Shown piece by piece: positions 4,672-11,410 of a stretch of DNA of 41,277 bases (position 1 is its first letter; each line of letters begins with the position of its first letter). The notes under the pieces were generated by a model, which was not told the origin of the DNA, did no database searches, and saw nothing but the letters and a program-made list of their open reading frames with translations. Position numbers and translations under genes: made by a program. Source of the stretch: Streptomyces albogriseolus (GTDB taxonomy: Bacteria; Actinomycetota; Actinomycetes; Streptomycetales; Streptomycetaceae). The DNA is taken from the NCBI GenBank assembly GCA_014650475.1, contig BMVA01000033.1:1-41277 (forward strand), given 5' to 3'.

Positions 4672-4700
4672 AGTATCGCCCATACCTAACGGGTATACAT
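4672..4700. promoter_or_regulatory. divergent control region with inverted repeat ATACC-N5-GGTAT
   Basis: The 126-bp gap between padR (minus) and the solute-binding protein gene (plus) is AT-richer than its surroundings. It holds the inverted repeat ATACCTAACGGGTAT (4682-4696), next to GTATAC (4693-4698). On the minus strand, GATACT (4677-4672) could serve as the -10 of padR. On the plus strand, TATACA (4694-4699) could be a -10. No good -35 was found for either. The octamer TACCTAAC inside the repeat recurs twice upstream of the alpha-glucosidase gene. Confidence 0.5.
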
Positions 4701-4752
4701 GGCCTCTGACCCCGGCAAGGGTGCCCGGGTGCCGGTGTACAGGGAGGAACCT

Positions 4753-6024
4753 ATGCGGTGGATCCATGCCGCGGGTAGGGGCCTTCTCGTCCTGATCGTC
4801 GTTCTGACCGGTTACGTCGCCTCCGGCGCGAGCGCCGGCGAGCGTCCCGGGGACGGGCGCGGACCGCTCACCCTGGCCACCGCCGGGGACCTCACCGGCT
4901 ACCTCGGCTCCGTCCTCGACGGCTGGAACCGCACCCACCCCGGCGAGGAGGTCACCCTCGTCGAGCTGCCCGACTCCGCCGACGAGACCCGCGCGCAGAT
5001 GATCACCGACCTGCGGGCCGGCGAGGGCGGCCGCTTCGACGTGCTGAACATCGACGTCAGCTGGACCTCGGAGTTCGCCGCCGCCGGCTGGATCCGCCCG
5101 CTGCCCCGCGACCGGTTCCCGCTGGACACCTTCCTGCCCCGGGTCGTCGACACCGCCACCTACGACGGCCGGCTGTACGCCGTTCCGTACGTGACCAACG
5201 CCGGGCTGCTGCTGTACCGCAAGGACGTCCTCGACGACGCCGGCGTCCCGCCCCCGCGCACCTGGGCGGAACTGGAGCGGGCCGCGAAGACCCTCGCCCC
5301 CGCACGCGGACTCGACGGTTACGCGGGCCAGTTCCTGCCCTACGAAGGGCTCACCGTGAACGCGGCCGAGGCGGTCTACTCGGCGGGCGGCGCCATCCTC
5401 GGCGACGAGGGCGAACGCGTCACCGTGGACTCCCGGGCGGCCCGCAAGGGCATCGGGTTCCTGGCCCGCGGGGTCCGCGAGGGCTGGATCCCCCGGGAGG
5501 CGCTGGCGTACAAGGAGGAGGAGTCCAAGCGGGCCTTCCAGGACGGCCGGCTGCTCTTCCTGCGCAACTGGCCCTACGCGTACGTCGCCGCCTCCGCCCC
5601 GGGCTCGAAGGTCGCGGGGAAGGTCGGCGCCGTGCCCCTGCCGGGACCGGACGGCCCCGGGACCAGTGTGCTCGGCGGGTCCAACCTGGCCGTGAGCAGC
5701 CACGCCAGGCACCCCGACTCCGCCGCCCGGCTGCTGGCGTACCTCACCGGCGAGCGGGTGCAGCGCCAGGTGCTCACCCGCGGCGCGCTGCCGCCCGTAC
5801 GGGCCGGCCTGTACGACGACCCGGAACTGGTGCGCCGCTTCCCGTACCTGCCGACCCTGCGCGAGAGCGTGCTGGCCGCCGCGCCGCGGCCCAAGAGCCC
5901 GCGCTACGACCAGGTGAGCCTGGTGGTGCAGGCGGTGGTGCACGACGCGATGAGCGGGCGGCAGACGCCCGAGGCCGCGGTGCGCCGGCTGGCGGCCGAG
6001 CTGGCCGCCGTCTCCTCCCGCTGA
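4753..6024 (+). CDS. secreted extracellular solute-binding protein, family 1
   Basis: This 423-residue protein has a Sec-type signal peptide (about residues 1-29, ending ASGASAG) and then a family 1 solute-binding fold. Recognisable parts are LTLATAGDLTGYLGSVLDGWNRTHP at the first strand and helix, FDVLNIDVSWTSEFA, and the LYAVPYVTNAGLLLYRKDVLDDAG segment typical of maltose/trehalose-type binding proteins. There is no lipobox cysteine, so unlike most actinobacterial binding proteins it is not predicted to be lipid-anchored. The ATG at 4753 was chosen for the AGGGAGGA ribosome site 4 bases upstream. An in-frame ATG at 4699 would place the signal peptide after an 18-residue extension. The gene is divergent from padR and points towards the alpha-glucosidase and permease genes. 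The ligand is probably a sugar but unproven. Confidence 0.88.
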   Translation: MRWIHAAGRGLLVLIVVLTGYVASGASAGERPGDGRGPLTLATAGDLTGYLGSVLDGWNRTHPGEEVTLVELPDSADETRAQMITDLRAGEGGRFDVLNIDVSWTSEFAAAGWIRPLPRDRFPLDTFLPRVVDTATYDGRLYAVPYVTNAGLLLYRKDVLDDAGVPPPRTWAELERAAKTLAPARGLDGYAGQFLPYEGLTVNAAEAVYSAGGAILGDEGERVTVDSRAARKGIGFLARGVREGWIPREALAYKEEESKRAFQDGRLLFLRNWPYAYVAASAPGSKVAGKVGAVPLPGPDGPGTSVLGGSNLAVSSHARHPDSAARLLAYLTGERVQRQVLTRGALPPVRAGLYDDPELVRRFPYLPTLRESVLAAAPRPKSPRYDQVSLVVQAVVHDAMSGRQTPEAAVRRLAAELAAVSSR

Positions 6025-6207: not shown

Positions 6208-7830
6208 GTGAACAGGCACCATTGGTGGCGTGACGCGGTGATCTACCAGGTGTACGTCCGCAGCTTTCTGGACAGCACCGGGGACGGCATCGGCGATCTC
6301 GCCGGGGTCAGGGCGGGGCTGCCGTACCTGAGAAAGCTCGGCGTGGACGGGATATGGCTCAGCCCGTTCTACCCCTCGCCCCAGCACGACCACGGCTACG
6401 ACGTGGCCGACTACCGCGACGTCGACCCGGTCTACGGCGACCTCGACGAGTTCGACCGGCTGGTGACCGCGGCCCACCGCCTCGGCATCCGGGTCCTGCT
6501 CGACATCGTGCCCAACCACTGCTCCAGCGGGCACCCGTGGTTCCGCGAGGCACTGGCCGCCGCACCCGGCAGCCCCGAGCGGGCCCGCTTCCACTTCGCC
6601 GACGGCCGCGGCCCCGACGGCAGCGAGCCGCCCAACAACTGGCACGCCATGTTCGGCGGCCCCGCCTGGACCCGTGTCACCGAGGCGGACGGCCGCCCCG
6701 GCCAGTGGTACCTGCACATGTTCACGCCCGAGCAGCCCGACTGGAACTGGCGCAACCCCGAGATCGCCGCCGAGTTCGACCAGGTCCTGCGGTTCTGGCT
6801 CGACCGGGGCGTCGACGGCTTCCGCATCGACGTCGCCGCGGGACTGTTCAAGCACCCCGAGCTGCCCGACTCCCCGGACCCCGAGGCCGACGCCCGCACC
6901 CGCGACTCGGTCAACCCGCTCGCCTGGAACCAGCCCGAGGTGCACGACGTCTGGCGGCACTGGCGCGCGGTGTGCGAGGAGTACACCGCCCGCGACGGCC
7001 GCGAACGCCTCCTGGTCGGCGAGGTCTCCGTGCCCTCCGCCCGCGAGCACGCCAAGTACGTCCGCCCCGACGAGCTCCACCAGGCGTTCTTCTTCGACCT
7101 GCTCGGCGCGCCCTGGGACGCCGACGCCTTCCGCAAGGTGATCTCCGAGGCCATGCAGGACATCGCCGGCACCGGCTCGACCGTCACCTGGGTGCTCAAC
7201 AACCACGACCAGGTGCGCACGGTCACCCGCTACGGCGAACCCGCCCCCGAGGGCAGCGGACTCGGCGCCGCCCGCGCCCGCGCCGCCGCGCTGCTGATGC
7301 TGGCACTGCCCGGCGCCGCGTACATCTACCAGGGCGAGGAGCTGGGCCTGCCGGAGGTCGTCGACCTGCCCGACGACGTGCTCACCGACCCGATCTTCCG
7401 CCGCACCGGCAGCCGCGCCCGCATCCGCGACGGCTGCCGGGTGCCGCTGCCCTGGTCCGGACACGCCTCGCCGTTCGGCTTCACCTCCGGCGCCGAGAGC
7501 GCCAAGCCCTGGCTGCCTCAGCCCGAGTACTTCGCCGAGTACGCCACCCACCGCGCCCTCGCCGACACCCGCTCCTCCTGGCACCTCTACCGCGACGGCC
7601 TGCAACTGCGTTCTGCCCTGCACCAGTTGGGCGAGGGCACGCTGCGCTGGCTGGACACCCAGCCCGGCGTCCTCGCCTTCGCCCGCGGCGACGACCTCGT
7701 CTGCGCCGTCAACTTCGGCACCGCCCCCGTACCCGCCCCGGTCGCCGGCACCCCGCTGCTCGCCAGCGGCCCCTGCCGGCCCGGGGAGCTCCCCGGCTCC
7801 ACCGCCGCCTGGTGGATCGACGGCTCCTGA
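6208..7830 (+). CDS. aglA: GH13 alpha-glucosidase / oligo-1,6-glucosidase type
   Basis: This 540-residue intracellular glycoside hydrolase of family GH13 should release glucose from alpha-glucosides taken up by the neighbouring transporter. It lacks a signal peptide. All four conserved GH13 regions are present: DIVPNH (99-104), GFRIDVA with nucleophile Asp208, GEVS with acid/base Glu272, and NNHDQ with Asp334. The opening WWRDAVIYQVYVRSF and GLPYLRKLGVDGIWLSPF are typical of exo-acting alpha-glucosidases rather than endo-amylases. The GTG at 6208 is used; the ribosome site is weak (AGG, then GGGG). It has its own promoter region (6025-6207) and is followed after 42 bases by a lipoprotein binding protein and two permeases, forming a sugar-use operon. 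Maltose, isomaltose or a related sugar are all possible substrates. Confidence 0.93.
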   Translation: MNRHHWWRDAVIYQVYVRSFLDSTGDGIGDLAGVRAGLPYLRKLGVDGIWLSPFYPSPQHDHGYDVADYRDVDPVYGDLDEFDRLVTAAHRLGIRVLLDIVPNHCSSGHPWFREALAAAPGSPERARFHFADGRGPDGSEPPNNWHAMFGGPAWTRVTEADGRPGQWYLHMFTPEQPDWNWRNPEIAAEFDQVLRFWLDRGVDGFRIDVAAGLFKHPELPDSPDPEADARTRDSVNPLAWNQPEVHDVWRHWRAVCEEYTARDGRERLLVGEVSVPSAREHAKYVRPDELHQAFFFDLLGAPWDADAFRKVISEAMQDIAGTGSTVTWVLNNHDQVRTVTRYGEPAPEGSGLGAARARAAALLMLALPGAAYIYQGEELGLPEVVDLPDDVLTDPIFRRTGSRARIRDGCRVPLPWSGHASPFGFTSGAESAKPWLPQPEYFAEYATHRALADTRSSWHLYRDGLQLRSALHQLGEGTLRWLDTQPGVLAFARGDDLVCAVNFGTAPVPAPVAGTPLLASGPCRPGELPGSTAAWWIDGS

Positions 7831-7872
7831 GACAGCACGCCCGGTCACTCCTGTTTCCCCGAAGGGACATCG

Positions 7873-9204
7873 ATGATGATGCGACGACGTACCACCCTGC
7901 TCGCCGGATGCACCGCCCTCGTCCTCGCGCTCGGCGCGACCGCCTGCGGAGGCGGCGAGCCCGTCGCGGCCGGCGGCGGCGACAAGGCGCTCGGCGGCCA
8001 GACCGTCACCGTGGCCGGTGTCTGGTCCGGCAGCGAGCAGAAGAACTTCCAGAAGGTGCTCGACGCCTTCACCGAGAAGACCGGCGCCAAGACCCAGTTC
8101 GTCTCCACCGGCGACAACGTCTCCACCGTCGTCGGCAGCAAGATCGAGGGCGGCAACGCCCCCGACGTCGTGATGGTCCCGCAGGTCGGCGTGCTCAAGC
8201 AGTTCGCCGGACAGGGCTGGCTGAAGCCGCTGGACAAGAAGGTGCAGTCGGCCGTGGGCGCCAACTTCGCCGAGGTGTGGCAGAACTACGGCAGCGTCGA
8301 CGGCACCCTGTACGGCCTGTACTTCAAGGCCGCCCACAAGTCGACCGTCTGGTACAGCCCCGAGGCGCTCGAGCAGGCCGGCGTCGCCGAGCCCAAGACC
8401 TACGACGAGATGCTGAAGAACGGCCGGACCATATCCGACTCCGGGCTCGCCGCCTTCTCCGTCGCCGGCCAGGACGGCTGGACCCTCACCGACTGGTTCG
8501 AGAACGTCTACCTCTCGCAGGCCGGACCCGAGAAGTACGACGCCCTCGCCGCGCACGAGATCAAGTGGACCGACCCGACCGTGGTCGACGCGCTCACCAC
8601 CCTCGGCAAGCTGTTCAAGGACAAGCAGCTCATCGCGGGCGGCCAGAAGGGGGCCCTGAACACCGACTTCCCCGGCTCGGTGGAGAAGGTCTTCGGGCCC
8701 AAGGCCGAGGCCGCCATGGTCTACGAGGGCGACTTCGTGGCCGGCGTCGCCAAGGACCAGTTCGGCCGCACCATCGGCACCGACGCGAACTTCTTCCCGT
8801 TCCCGCCGGTCGGCGGCGGTGAGGCGCCCGTGGTGAGCGGCGGCGACGCGGCCGTCGTCCTCAAGGACGGCAAGAACAGCGAGGCCGGCATGGCGCTCGT
8901 CGAGTACCTGGCGAGCCCCGAGGCCGCGGCCGTCTGGGCCGAGGCCGGCGGCTTCCTCTCCCCGAACAAGAAGCTCGACCTGTCCTCCTACGGCGACGAC
9001 GTCACCCGCGCCACCGCCGAGTCCCTGGTCGCGGCCGGCGACTCGGTCCGCTTCGACATGTCCGACCAGGCCCCCGCGGCCTTCGGCGGCACCAAGGGCG
9101 CCGGCGAGTGGAAGATCCTCCAGGACTTCCTGCGTGACCCGTCCGACCCGAGGAAGACCGCGGCCGAGCTCGAGAAGGCCGCCGCCAAGGCCTACGGGAA
9201 CTGA
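7873..9204 (+). CDS. sugar ABC transporter substrate-binding lipoprotein
   Basis: This 443-residue family 1 solute-binding protein is the extracellular receptor of the sugar importer. It starts with Arg residues, a hydrophobic stretch and a lipobox ending at Cys25 (GATAC), so it should be lipid-anchored on the outer face of the membrane. Cys13 in LLAGC also fits a lipobox by sequence but leaves too short a hydrophobic core. The mature part contains GQTVTVAGVWSGSEQKNFQKV and the GNAPDVVMVPQVGVLKQFA segment characteristic of alpha-glucoside binding proteins. Three consecutive ATG codons at 7873, 7876 and 7879 are possible starts; GAAGGGA five bases before the first supports 7873. It lies between the alpha-glucosidase and the first permease, five bases from the latter. 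Confidence 0.93.
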   Translation: MMMRRRTTLLAGCTALVLALGATACGGGEPVAAGGGDKALGGQTVTVAGVWSGSEQKNFQKVLDAFTEKTGAKTQFVSTGDNVSTVVGSKIEGGNAPDVVMVPQVGVLKQFAGQGWLKPLDKKVQSAVGANFAEVWQNYGSVDGTLYGLYFKAAHKSTVWYSPEALEQAGVAEPKTYDEMLKNGRTISDSGLAAFSVAGQDGWTLTDWFENVYLSQAGPEKYDALAAHEIKWTDPTVVDALTTLGKLFKDKQLIAGGQKGALNTDFPGSVEKVFGPKAEAAMVYEGDFVAGVAKDQFGRTIGTDANFFPFPPVGGGEAPVVSGGDAAVVLKDGKNSEAGMALVEYLASPEAAAVWAEAGGFLSPNKKLDLSSYGDDVTRATAESLVAAGDSVRFDMSDQAPAAFGGTKGAGEWKILQDFLRDPSDPRKTAAELEKAAAKAYGN

Positions 9205-9209
9205 CGGCC

Positions 9210-10574
9210 ATGACCGCCACACTCCTGAAGGAGGCGACCCCGCCCGCCCCCGCGCGCCCCGACGGCGCGCGCGGGCGGCGCCTGCGCCGGCGTGGCCGGA
9301 TCGTCGCCCTGCTGTTCGTGCTCCCCGCGCTGCTGCTGCTCGGCGCGCTGGTCGTCTACCCGGTGCTGTTCTCCGTCGGCCGCAGCTTCTTCGACGCGTC
9401 CGGCACCGAGTTCGTCGGCGGCGAGAACTACGCCGAGATGTTCCGCGACCCGGCGACCCTCAAGGCCATCCGCAACACGGCCGTCTGGGTCGTCGTGGCC
9501 CCGACCCTGCTGACCGGGCTCGGCCTGATCCTCGCCGTGCTGGTGGAGAAGGTGCGCTGGGCCACCGCCTTCAAACTGCTGCTGTTCATGCCGATGGCGG
9601 TGTCCTTCCTCGCCGCCGGCATCATCTTCCGGCTCGCCTATGACGAGGACCCCGACAAGGGCGTCCTCAACGCGGCCGTCGTCTCCGTCCACGACGCCTT
9701 CACGGGCAGCTCCTCCTACCCGACCGCCCGCGCCCGCGACGGCGAGGGCCTGACCAAGGAGCGCGACGGCTCCTACGTCACGGCGGCGGACGTCTCACCC
9801 GGCTCCACGGCAGTGCTCGGCCTGGTCGGCGTCGCCCCCAAGGACCTGCCCGGCGAGGCCGAACCCGCCTCGAAGGCGGCGTCGGACACGGCCGCCGCGG
9901 ACGAGGTGCGCGGCGTGGTGTACCTCGACTTCACGCCCGGCGGAGGAGGGGAGCCGGGCGTGGTCGACCGCGAGGAGAGCGGACTGCCCGGCGTGACCGT
10001 CGAGGCGGTGCGCGACGGGAAGAAGGTCGCGAGCACCACCACCGCGTCCGACGGCTCCTTCCGCTTCACCGGCCTCGACGACGGCTCGTACGCGCTGAAG
10101 CTGCCCTCGGACAACTTCGCCCCGCCCTACGAGGGGATCTCCTGGCTCGGCCCGGCGCTGGTCACCCCGGCGATCATCGGGGCGTACCTGTGGATCTGGA
10201 CCGGGTTCGCGATGGTGCTGATCGGGGCCGGCCTGTCCACACTGCCCCGGGACGCCCTGGAGGCGGCGCGGATGGACGGCGCGGGCGAGTGGCAGATCTT
10301 CCGCAGGATCACCGTCCCGCTGCTCGCACCGGTCCTGACCGTGGTGTTCGTGACGCTGGTGATCAACGTGATGAAGGTCTTCGACCTCGTCTACATCATC
10401 GCGCCGGGACCCGTGCAGGAGGACGCGACCGTCCTCGCCACCCAGATGTGGCTGGTGTCCTTCGGAGGCGGCAACAACCAGGGGCTGGGCAGCGCGCTCG
10501 GCGTCCTGCTGCTGCTCCTGGTCATCCCGGCCATGGTGTTCAACGTCCGCCGCTTCAAGAGGAGTCAGCGATGA
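9210..10574 (+). CDS. MalF-type sugar ABC permease with an extracellular SdrD_B-like insert
   Basis: This is an inner-membrane permease subunit of the binding-protein-dependent sugar family (454 residues). Membrane segments are visible at about 31-55, 88-113, 120-142, 315-340, 370-395 and 428-447. The ATPase-coupling EAA loop is EAARMDGAGEWQIFRRITVP (351-370). Relatives are about 300 residues long. This one has about 160 extra residues (145-310) between the third and fourth core membrane helices, a loop that should face outside. Residues 235-300 resemble an SdrD_B/CNA-B-like beta-sandwich, with VYLDF, ESGLPGVTV and DGSFRFTGLDDGSYALKL. The frame is open throughout, so this is a real insertion and not a frameshift. 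The stop overlaps the start of the next permease gene by 4 bases. Confidence 0.92.
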   Translation: MTATLLKEATPPAPARPDGARGRRLRRRGRIVALLFVLPALLLLGALVVYPVLFSVGRSFFDASGTEFVGGENYAEMFRDPATLKAIRNTAVWVVVAPTLLTGLGLILAVLVEKVRWATAFKLLLFMPMAVSFLAAGIIFRLAYDEDPDKGVLNAAVVSVHDAFTGSSSYPTARARDGEGLTKERDGSYVTAADVSPGSTAVLGLVGVAPKDLPGEAEPASKAASDTAAADEVRGVVYLDFTPGGGGEPGVVDREESGLPGVTVEAVRDGKKVASTTTASDGSFRFTGLDDGSYALKLPSDNFAPPYEGISWLGPALVTPAIIGAYLWIWTGFAMVLIGAGLSTLPRDALEAARMDGAGEWQIFRRITVPLLAPVLTVVFVTLVINVMKVFDLVYIIAPGPVQEDATVLATQMWLVSFGGGNNQGLGSALGVLLLLLVIPAMVFNVRRFKRSQR

Positions 10575-11410
10575 ACGTGATCCGTCGCGGCCTGGGCAAC
10601 GCGGTGGTGCAGGCCTTCCTGGTGGTGATCGGGCTGGTCTGGATGACCCCGCTGGCCGGTCTGTTCCTGTCCTCGCTGCGGTCCGCGGAGGACACCGCGA
10701 AGGGCGGCTGGTGGACCGTGTTCACCAGCCCCGGGCAGCTGTCCTTCGACAACTACTCGGCGCTGCTGGAGAACTCCGGCATCACGCAGGCGTTCTGGAA
10801 CACCGTGCTGATCTCGGTGCCGACCACCGTGCTCGTCGTGGTCGTCGCCGCGCTCGCCGGATACGCCTTCGCCTGGCTGGAGTTCCCCGGGCGGGACACG
10901 GTGTTCCTGGTCGTGGTGGCGCTGCTGGTGGTGCCGGTGCAGATCGGTCTCCTGCCCGTCGCCAAACTCTTCGGCCAGCTCGGGCTGTTCGGCACCATCC
11001 CGGGTGTCGTGCTGTTCCACGTGGCGTACGGGCTGCCGTTCGCGGTGTTCCTGCTGCGGAACTACTTCGCGGAGATGCCGAAGGAGATGCTGGAGGCCGC
11101 GCGGATGGACGGCGGCAACGAGTGGCGGATCTTCACCCGGCTGGTGCTGCCGGTGGGCCGGCCGGCGATCGCCAGCCTCGCCATCTTCCAGTTCCTGTGG
11201 GTGTGGAACGACATGCTGGTGGCGCTGCTGTTCGCGGACAGTTCCTCGCAGCCGTTGACGGTGGAGCTGCAGTCGCAGATCCGGCAGTTCGGCAGCAACG
11301 TGGATGTGCTGGCGCCGGGGGCGTTCCTGTCGCTGGTGGTGCCGGTGGTGGTGTTCTTCGCGTTCCAGCGGCACTTCGTGCAGGGGGTCATGGCGGGGTC
11401 CGTGAAGTAG
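10571..11410 (+). CDS. MalG-type sugar ABC permease
   Basis: This is the second permease subunit (279 residues) and should pair with the MalF-type subunit whose stop overlaps its ATG (ATGA). It has six hydrophobic segments. Its EAA loop is EAARMDGGNEWRIFTRLVLP (about 177-196), followed by the FLWVWNDMLVALLF segment typical of MalG homologues. Length and layout are ordinary for the family. The operon ends here with a strong hairpin and has no ATPase gene. In Streptomyces a shared ATPase (MsiK) is known to energise many sugar importers of this class, so the missing subunit is probably encoded elsewhere. The two ATPases in this window are of exporter type and are unlikely partners. Confidence 0.94.
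   Translation: MNVIRRGLGNAVVQAFLVVIGLVWMTPLAGLFLSSLRSAEDTAKGGWWTVFTSPGQLSFDNYSALLENSGITQAFWNTVLISVPTTVLVVVVAALAGYAFAWLEFPGRDTVFLVVVALLVVPVQIGLLPVAKLFGQLGLFGTIPGVVLFHVAYGLPFAVFLLRNYFAEMPKEMLEAARMDGGNEWRIFTRLVLPVGRPAIASLAIFQFLWVWNDMLVALLFADSSSQPLTVELQSQIRQFGSNVDVLAPGAFLSLVVPVVVFFAFQRHFVQGVMAGSVK

Follow-up and report, generated by a model that had tools for sequence, protein, structure and literature searches.

The agl genes are described as specifying an alpha-glucoside ABC transporter, with aglA of Sinorhizobium meliloti, which encodes a GH13 alpha-glucosidase, forming part of an aglEFGAK operon (PMC3518184, in the portion of that paper available). In Streptomyces coelicolor the aglFG genes (SCO2979/SCO2980) have been named in silico as an alpha-glucoside permease (PMC7581861, accessible text) and SCO2981-2983 as glycosyltransferases (PMC3937824, likewise in part). 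Contact between binding protein and permease is documented for other importers. In the available sections of PMC3150292 the P2 region of E. coli MalF comprises residues 91-271, includes beta-sheets and touches MalE through segment 240-249; a paper cited there reports, by its title, that MalE contacts both MalF P2 and MalG P1. For the pair PotC and PotD, excerpts of PMC11414716 give K127, T126 and R145 of PotC as contacts that bind the C-lobe of PotD, and describe a P3 scoop loop of PotC that enters the PotD binding site.

The name AglF is applied to the relatives discussed below on the strength of the S. meliloti operon. The pSymB operon of that organism encodes a substrate-binding-domain protein, a binding protein, two permeases, an alpha-glucosidase and a UgpC-type ATPase, and from this gene order we infer that it is aglEFGAK. 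Here we describe a related locus in a stretch of 41,277 nucleotides of Streptomyces albogriseolus DNA (the window), in which the AglF-type permease carries a large insert between its third and fourth core membrane helices.

Operon and family assignment

All genes of the operon lie on the + strand of the window, in the order GH13-E-F-G. A GH13 glycosidase, an AglA-like alpha-glucosidase (6208..7830; Pfam Alpha-amylase, E 4.4e-103), is followed by an AglE-like solute-binding lipoprotein of 443 aa (7873..9204; Pfam SBP_bac_1, E 5.8e-30; lipobox assigned by eye), by the open reading frame of the AglF-type permease of 454 aa that bears the TM3-TM4 insert (9210..10574), and by an AglG-type second permease, which has a short P1 loop and no insert (10571..11410). 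The AglG start was taken from the sequence, and its ATG overlaps the AglF stop; the Pfam scan of AglG ran from 10574. The genes for E, F and G thus stand together with a GH13 gene, the arrangement by which we recognize the AglF family, and the BPD_transp_1 core, the EAA loop, the neighboring binding protein and the second permease mark the system as a type I sugar ABC importer. We assume that a shared MsiK-type ATPase powers the Streptomyces AglEFG importer. A second SBP_bac_1 binding protein is encoded at 4690-6021 (+), just upstream of the GH13 gene, with no permease gene directly adjoining; ORFs resembling it recur in some related loci.

A preliminary description of the window had termed the permease MalF-type. 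The core of the protein places it rather with AglF: it groups with AglF-type permeases, apart from 20 sugar permeases of its own genome, and its insert-bearing clade is sister to insertless AglF-like relatives with a support of 1.0. Identity between the window and Sinorhizobium proteins amounts to 32% for E, 37-43% for two pieces of F, 46-47% for two pieces of G and 38% for the GH13 enzyme. These sequence comparisons assign the window permease to the AglF family of alpha-glucoside importers, and alpha-glucoside transport is its predicted activity.

Binding protein, AglF and AglG occur together in 38 of the 40 insert-bearing loci that were fetched; of the other two, L196 is a contig with its start within the permease, and L205 holds a degraded copy. 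A GH13 gene is found within the fetched stretch in five of the 40 (directly adjacent in L183, L202 and L203; 3-5 kb away in L177 and L180); of the 16 insertless sister stretches, 11 contain one. In the degraded copy (L205 and L254, on contig 13 of genome G161), only residues ~305-454 of AglF are recognizable; G161 also possesses two full-length copies. In six loci from outside Streptomyces (L177, L180, L185, L192, L198 and L208) the permeases have beside them an ORF belonging to the ABC ATPase cluster, unlike in the window; that of L198 is MalK/MsiK-like by eye.

The S. albogriseolus genome contains a second full-length insert-bearing copy, 56% identical to the window AglF. Inspection by eye of two loci with the widespread Streptomyces paralogue (L193 and L201) showed it flanked by FHA/ATPase-like and serine/threonine-kinase-like ORFs and, opposite these, by a glycosyltransferase-like ORF. 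This last neighbor, again recognized by eye, together with the glycosyltransferases SCO2981-2983, suggests that the S. coelicolor aglFG genes are probably of this second type (L002/L193).

Position and predicted sidedness of the insert

The entire TM3-TM4 loop, predicted to be extracytoplasmic, spans residues 145-311 of AglF (9642..10142, +), as delimited by profile alignment, paralogue comparison and topology. The preliminary description had placed some 160 extra residues between core helices 3 and 4, at 9639-10140 (residues 144-310). Its location is borne out. The BPD_transp_1 match is confined to residues 310-443 (Pfam), and in a profile alignment to solved permeases residues ~140-320 remain unmatched between core helices 3 and 4, the insert falling between residues 134 and 169 of SugA and between residues 342 and 372 of MalF. 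The same alignment places the large loop of MalF itself between core TM1 and TM2; the helix pair therefore differs from that of MalF-P2, as had been proposed. The size requires a small correction: the net excess of the loop is 140-149 residues relative to every one of 21 paralogues in the same genome (those with both halves in the search output). Compared with 16 close insertless relatives, in which the loop measures 27-29 residues (27 in most), the 168 residues of AglF represent an excess of ~141.

Six regions of AglF are hydrophobic, its N-terminus is basic (8 K/R in 29), and helices 4 and 5 are separated by the EAA loop; the TM3-TM4 loop is strongly acidic (27 D/E compared to 14 K/R). The acidity of the loop, taken with the basic N-terminus and the position of the EAA loop, predicts a topology in which the insert lies on the extracytoplasmic side, in agreement with the earlier expectation that it faces the exterior.

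Composition of the insert

The two halves of the insert differ in what can be recognized. The C-terminal part (residues 231-305; 9900..10124, +), delimited by Pfam, HMM-HMM comparison and conservation, resembles the first half of an SdrD_B/CarboxypepD_reg-like beta-sandwich. CarboxypepD_reg matches residues 251-305 with 36.8 bits (cut-off 32.3), SdrD_B (PF17210) matches residues 250-298 with 36.1 bits (cut-off 29.7), and residues 248-300 match a solved SdrD structure. In HMM-HMM comparison SdrD_B repeats gave a probability of 98.7, over template columns 4-63 of 112, and repeats of CarboxypepD_reg type one of 98.2. Both repeat sets were partly chosen for similarity to the insert (the SdrD_B repeats came from actinobacterial ORFs that had been fetched for matching the insert, and a C-part profile served to select the CarboxypepD_reg set), so these probabilities are partly circular; the Pfam scores, which are not, provide cleaner evidence. 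Across 21 diverse members CarboxypepD_reg is detected in 12 and SdrD_B in 7 (E≤0.001). The HMM-HMM matches cover just the first half to two thirds of the domain, and Pfam aligns only positions 15-64 of the 112 of SdrD_B, so that no full-length domain is present. We assign residues ~236-300 in part, on sequence similarity, to the first half of the sandwich. The SdrD_B-like domain that the preliminary description had read from the letters, and for which it had named both Pfam families as a check, is thus upheld as a half-domain scoring above both cut-offs, in the second half of the insert only.

Within the C-part lies an expanded EF-hand-like loop. D240 is present in all 61 representatives, E256 in 60 and D253 in 52, with all three in 51; by reading, they occupy the first (D240), ninth (D253) and twelfth (E256) positions of the SdrD_B EF-hand-like loop, with a glycine-rich expansion between. 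The only other proteins of the genome above the SdrD_B cut-off (L211 and L212, on contigs C31 and C6) look by eye like multi-helix MFS transporters whose C-terminal region holds three CarboxypepD_reg-type repeats, possibly cytoplasmic.

No convincing relative of the N-terminal part (residues 165-230; 9702..9899, +) was obtained by HMM-HMM comparison; the segment is defined by that comparison and by the near-constant length of the insert, and its conserved residues are G187, G198, P214 and A220. The possibility that the insert is a circularly permuted TTR-like domain, with the N-part supplying the missing strands, found no support: in Pfam, five rearranged inserts, each of three paired with one shuffled control, did no better than the controls, and HMM-HMM scores fell inside the range of 100 column shuffles.

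The insert is under purifying selection. Among up to 400 random pairs drawn from 81 Streptomyces sequences, median omega is 0.40 for the N-part, 0.32 for the C-part, 0.24 for P1 and 0.075 for the core, which means that the core changes much more slowly than the insert. The GC3 of the insert (0.95-0.96) resembles that of the core (0.98) and gives no support to recent foreign acquisition; together with the near-constant length across families, this led us to reject such an origin. In viral contigs, none of 48 pattern matches encoded a relative.

Distribution and descent

The insert is a trait of the family, shared across Streptomyces and other families of Actinomycetota, and is not a recent acquisition. 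Matches extend over it in 35 of 41 relatives. At E≤0.001 a match of some kind is present in 85 of 394 genomes of the class; 69 of these matches are to full-length permeases, and 16 are weak, partial and mostly located in long unrelated ORFs. Across the phylum, 25 of 396 genomes match at E≤1e-10, and 13 of these lie outside the class (one with an internal stop). The span corresponding to residues 145-311 measures 161-170 aa in all 167 unique homologues that reach 420 aa in length, a constancy beyond chance; two short permease rows (L162 and L196) had been removed before the count. These homologues were chosen by a BLAST score of at least 300 against two insert-bearing queries, a procedure that tends to leave insertless proteins out; insertless relatives were accordingly sought separately.

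That search used helices 4-6 against 296 genomes of the class (E≤1e-28, with scoring limited to 13 candidates per genome). It returned 64 matches with 64-100% identity, all in frames of at least 444 aa, and after a gap 16 matches with 42-48% identity plus one partial remnant. All 16 have a TM3-TM4 loop of 27-29 residues and no insert. Many AglF relatives, then, are without it. In a tree built on core sequence with the insert left out (61 representatives below 85% identity and the 20 sugar permeases of the same genome), the insert-bearing permeases form one clade (61 of 61, support 0.82), and four of the first 12 insertless relatives to be placed are its immediate sister (node support 1.0). The insert is ancestral to an AglF family found in several classes of Actinomycetota; because relatives without it occur in other Actinomycetota and in the agl-type operon of Sinorhizobium, its gain is assigned to the stem of the insert clade. 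The earlier suggestion of an independently acquired module therefore stands with respect to an origin separate from that of MalF-P2, but not as a peculiarity of this genome.

A plasmid collection contained 11 records with the insert, ten from Streptomyces and one from Nonomuraea, and none from outside Actinomycetota. Eight are labeled 'ABC transporter permease subunit', one 'sugar ABC transporter permease', and two have no listed feature; the insert would sharpen the plain first label. The preliminary description had allowed that its reading would fail if all close permeases shared the loop and a role for it were known. The loop is indeed shared, but a literature search over partly accessible papers, older agl papers excepted, returned no report of an AglF TM3-TM4 insert or of its role.

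An extra segment in AglG of Alphaproteobacteria

The P1 segment of AglG is 14 residues long in 201 loci with insert-bearing AglF (repeats of the same gene included) and 13-16 residues long in all 16 insertless actinobacterial loci. In the six alphaproteobacterial agl operons that were read the AglF loop is short (24-28 residues) and AglG P1 measures 106-114 residues in every case, owing to a conserved insert of ~92-100 residues (in L255, where AglG lies at 7373-8515, and in L272, L273, L274, L277 and L278). Neither insert is present in the Arthrobacter and Treponema records (one each). Among the loci read, the AglF and AglG inserts never occur together. The AglG insert is encoded in 18 plasmid records, all of which we take to belong to alphaproteobacterial genera. 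In S. meliloti it matches no Pfam family at E≤1 except for one weak match at its very end.

Homology between the two inserts is unproven and was set aside: HMM-HMM probabilities are 2.8 for the N-part, 13.7 for the C-part and 9.0 for the whole, with matches restricted to a short 'DGsf'-type stretch. The N-part does score higher than any of 100 column shuffles (16.4, with 15.0 for the top shuffle), over only 24 columns.

Possible functions of the insert

Position, sidedness as predicted from topology, the partial SdrD_B-like assignment, the single clade, near-constant length and purifying selection are the features established above, and the docking of AglE is our interpretation of the insert that has them. 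On balance, and by a narrow preference, we think that it is a conserved accessory extracytoplasmic domain of AglF that contacts or holds AglE, in the manner of MalF-P2 but of independent descent and in another loop. The insert would form a beta-rich domain over the translocation gate and touch the lobes of the lipid-anchored AglE; contact would raise the residence time of AglE or position it for the release of sugar, so that the insert would act on AglE as MalF-P2 acts on MalE. Residues 126-145 of PotC presumably lie in the loop equivalent to the 3-4 loop of AglF, and these contacts, together with those of MalF-P2, imply that a domain rooted in that loop would stand beside docked AglE.

Two kinds of data bear on such contact. 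Across 48 loci the partial distance correlation between insert and AglE, given core and AglG, is weak at 0.17 (P 0.04), a value matched by the core helices (0.15-0.17). In addition, AglE positions conserved in insert-bearing systems and not elsewhere (37 compared to 24 sequences) cluster, mainly at 205-225 and, with a looser set, also at 404-417. The clustering has P 0.0015 relative to random positions (16 positions) but only P 0.048 relative to conserved columns, for a stricter set of 13 that leaves 411 and 417 alone in the second patch. These clusters may instead reflect sugar specificity. The rapid evolution of the insert relative to the core, the partial match to SdrD_B and the absence of the insert from many AglF relatives also count against docking.

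It is also conceivable that the insert packs on AglG, or on the TM5-6 outer loop of AglF, as a structural brace that stabilizes the gate or scoop loop with no contact to AglE. In keeping with this, N-part distances covary with those of AglG given core and AglE (partial distance correlation 0.37, P 0.002, 48 loci), and by our own topology two of six AglG and three of 12 AglF lineage-specific positions fall in TM5-6 outer loops. The same AglG statistic is, however, larger for helices 4-6 (0.48), so the covariation is not specific to the N-part, and we judge a brace to be rather unlikely. CarboxypepD_reg and SdrD_B folds are found in surface adhesins and resemble carbohydrate-binding folds. The insert might on these grounds be a glycan-contact module, holding the permease to the cell wall or capturing alpha-glucan near the gate. 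C-part relatives in several fetched ORFs are, by eye, tandem repeats of surface-protein type, and the GH13 gene of the operon, which has counterparts in 11 of the 16 insertless sister loci, points to alpha-glucan chemistry. But when the insert is read by eye, no pair of conserved surface aromatics of the kind usual in sugar binding stands out, and the MFS-like appearance of the genome's other two SdrD_B-scoring proteins indicates that the domain alone does not imply an adhesin; we consider a glycan-contact role rather unlikely. Very improbable, in our opinion, is a sensory or regulatory ear, such as a calcium-dependent switch acting through the expanded EF-hand-like loop: the conservation of D240, E256 and D253, which occur in combination in 51 of the 61 representatives, would fit, but glycines replace the middle ligands.

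Returning to the docking of AglE, the AglG segment of Alphaproteobacteria permits a broader and more tentative proposal. Possibly, though we would not put it above the alternative, AglEFG systems gained AglE-contact domains at least twice, in AglF TM3-4 in Actinomycetota and in AglG P1 in Alphaproteobacteria, either being sufficient and the two never occurring together. If true, and with MalF-P2 as a third case, sugar importers would repeatedly have evolved outer clamps that hold an otherwise diffusing binding protein. Why some binding-protein-dependent importers have an extra outer domain, when most have none, is usually argued from E. coli MalF-P2 alone. An insert on F, on G, or on neither within one importer family is a natural comparison set, with which the purpose of such domains becomes testable in common laboratory strains.

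Comparison with known systems

The paralogue that probably corresponds to S. coelicolor aglFG is 56% identical to the window AglF and has no GH13 gene in its fetched stretch; the accessible text of PMC7581861 mentions no insert in aglFG. Among solved permeases those of mycobacterial LpqY-SugABC score best by sequence, yet SugA has no insert, unlike the window AglF. SdrD_B and CarboxypepD_reg repeats are similar in sequence to residues 236-300, but AglF is without a recognizable second half and contains a single copy, situated inside the loop of a membrane protein. The P2 region of E. coli MalF is likewise a large extracytoplasmic part of the F-type permease of a sugar importer. That region includes beta-sheets and contacts the binding protein according to the portion of PMC3150292 available; it lies in the core TM1-TM2 loop, whereas the AglF insert lies in the TM3-TM4 loop, and there is no sequence match between them. 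The AglEFGAK system of S. meliloti is like the window system in operon content and permease core, but its AglF is without the TM3-4 insert, and its AglG has ~92 extra P1 residues where the window AglG has none.
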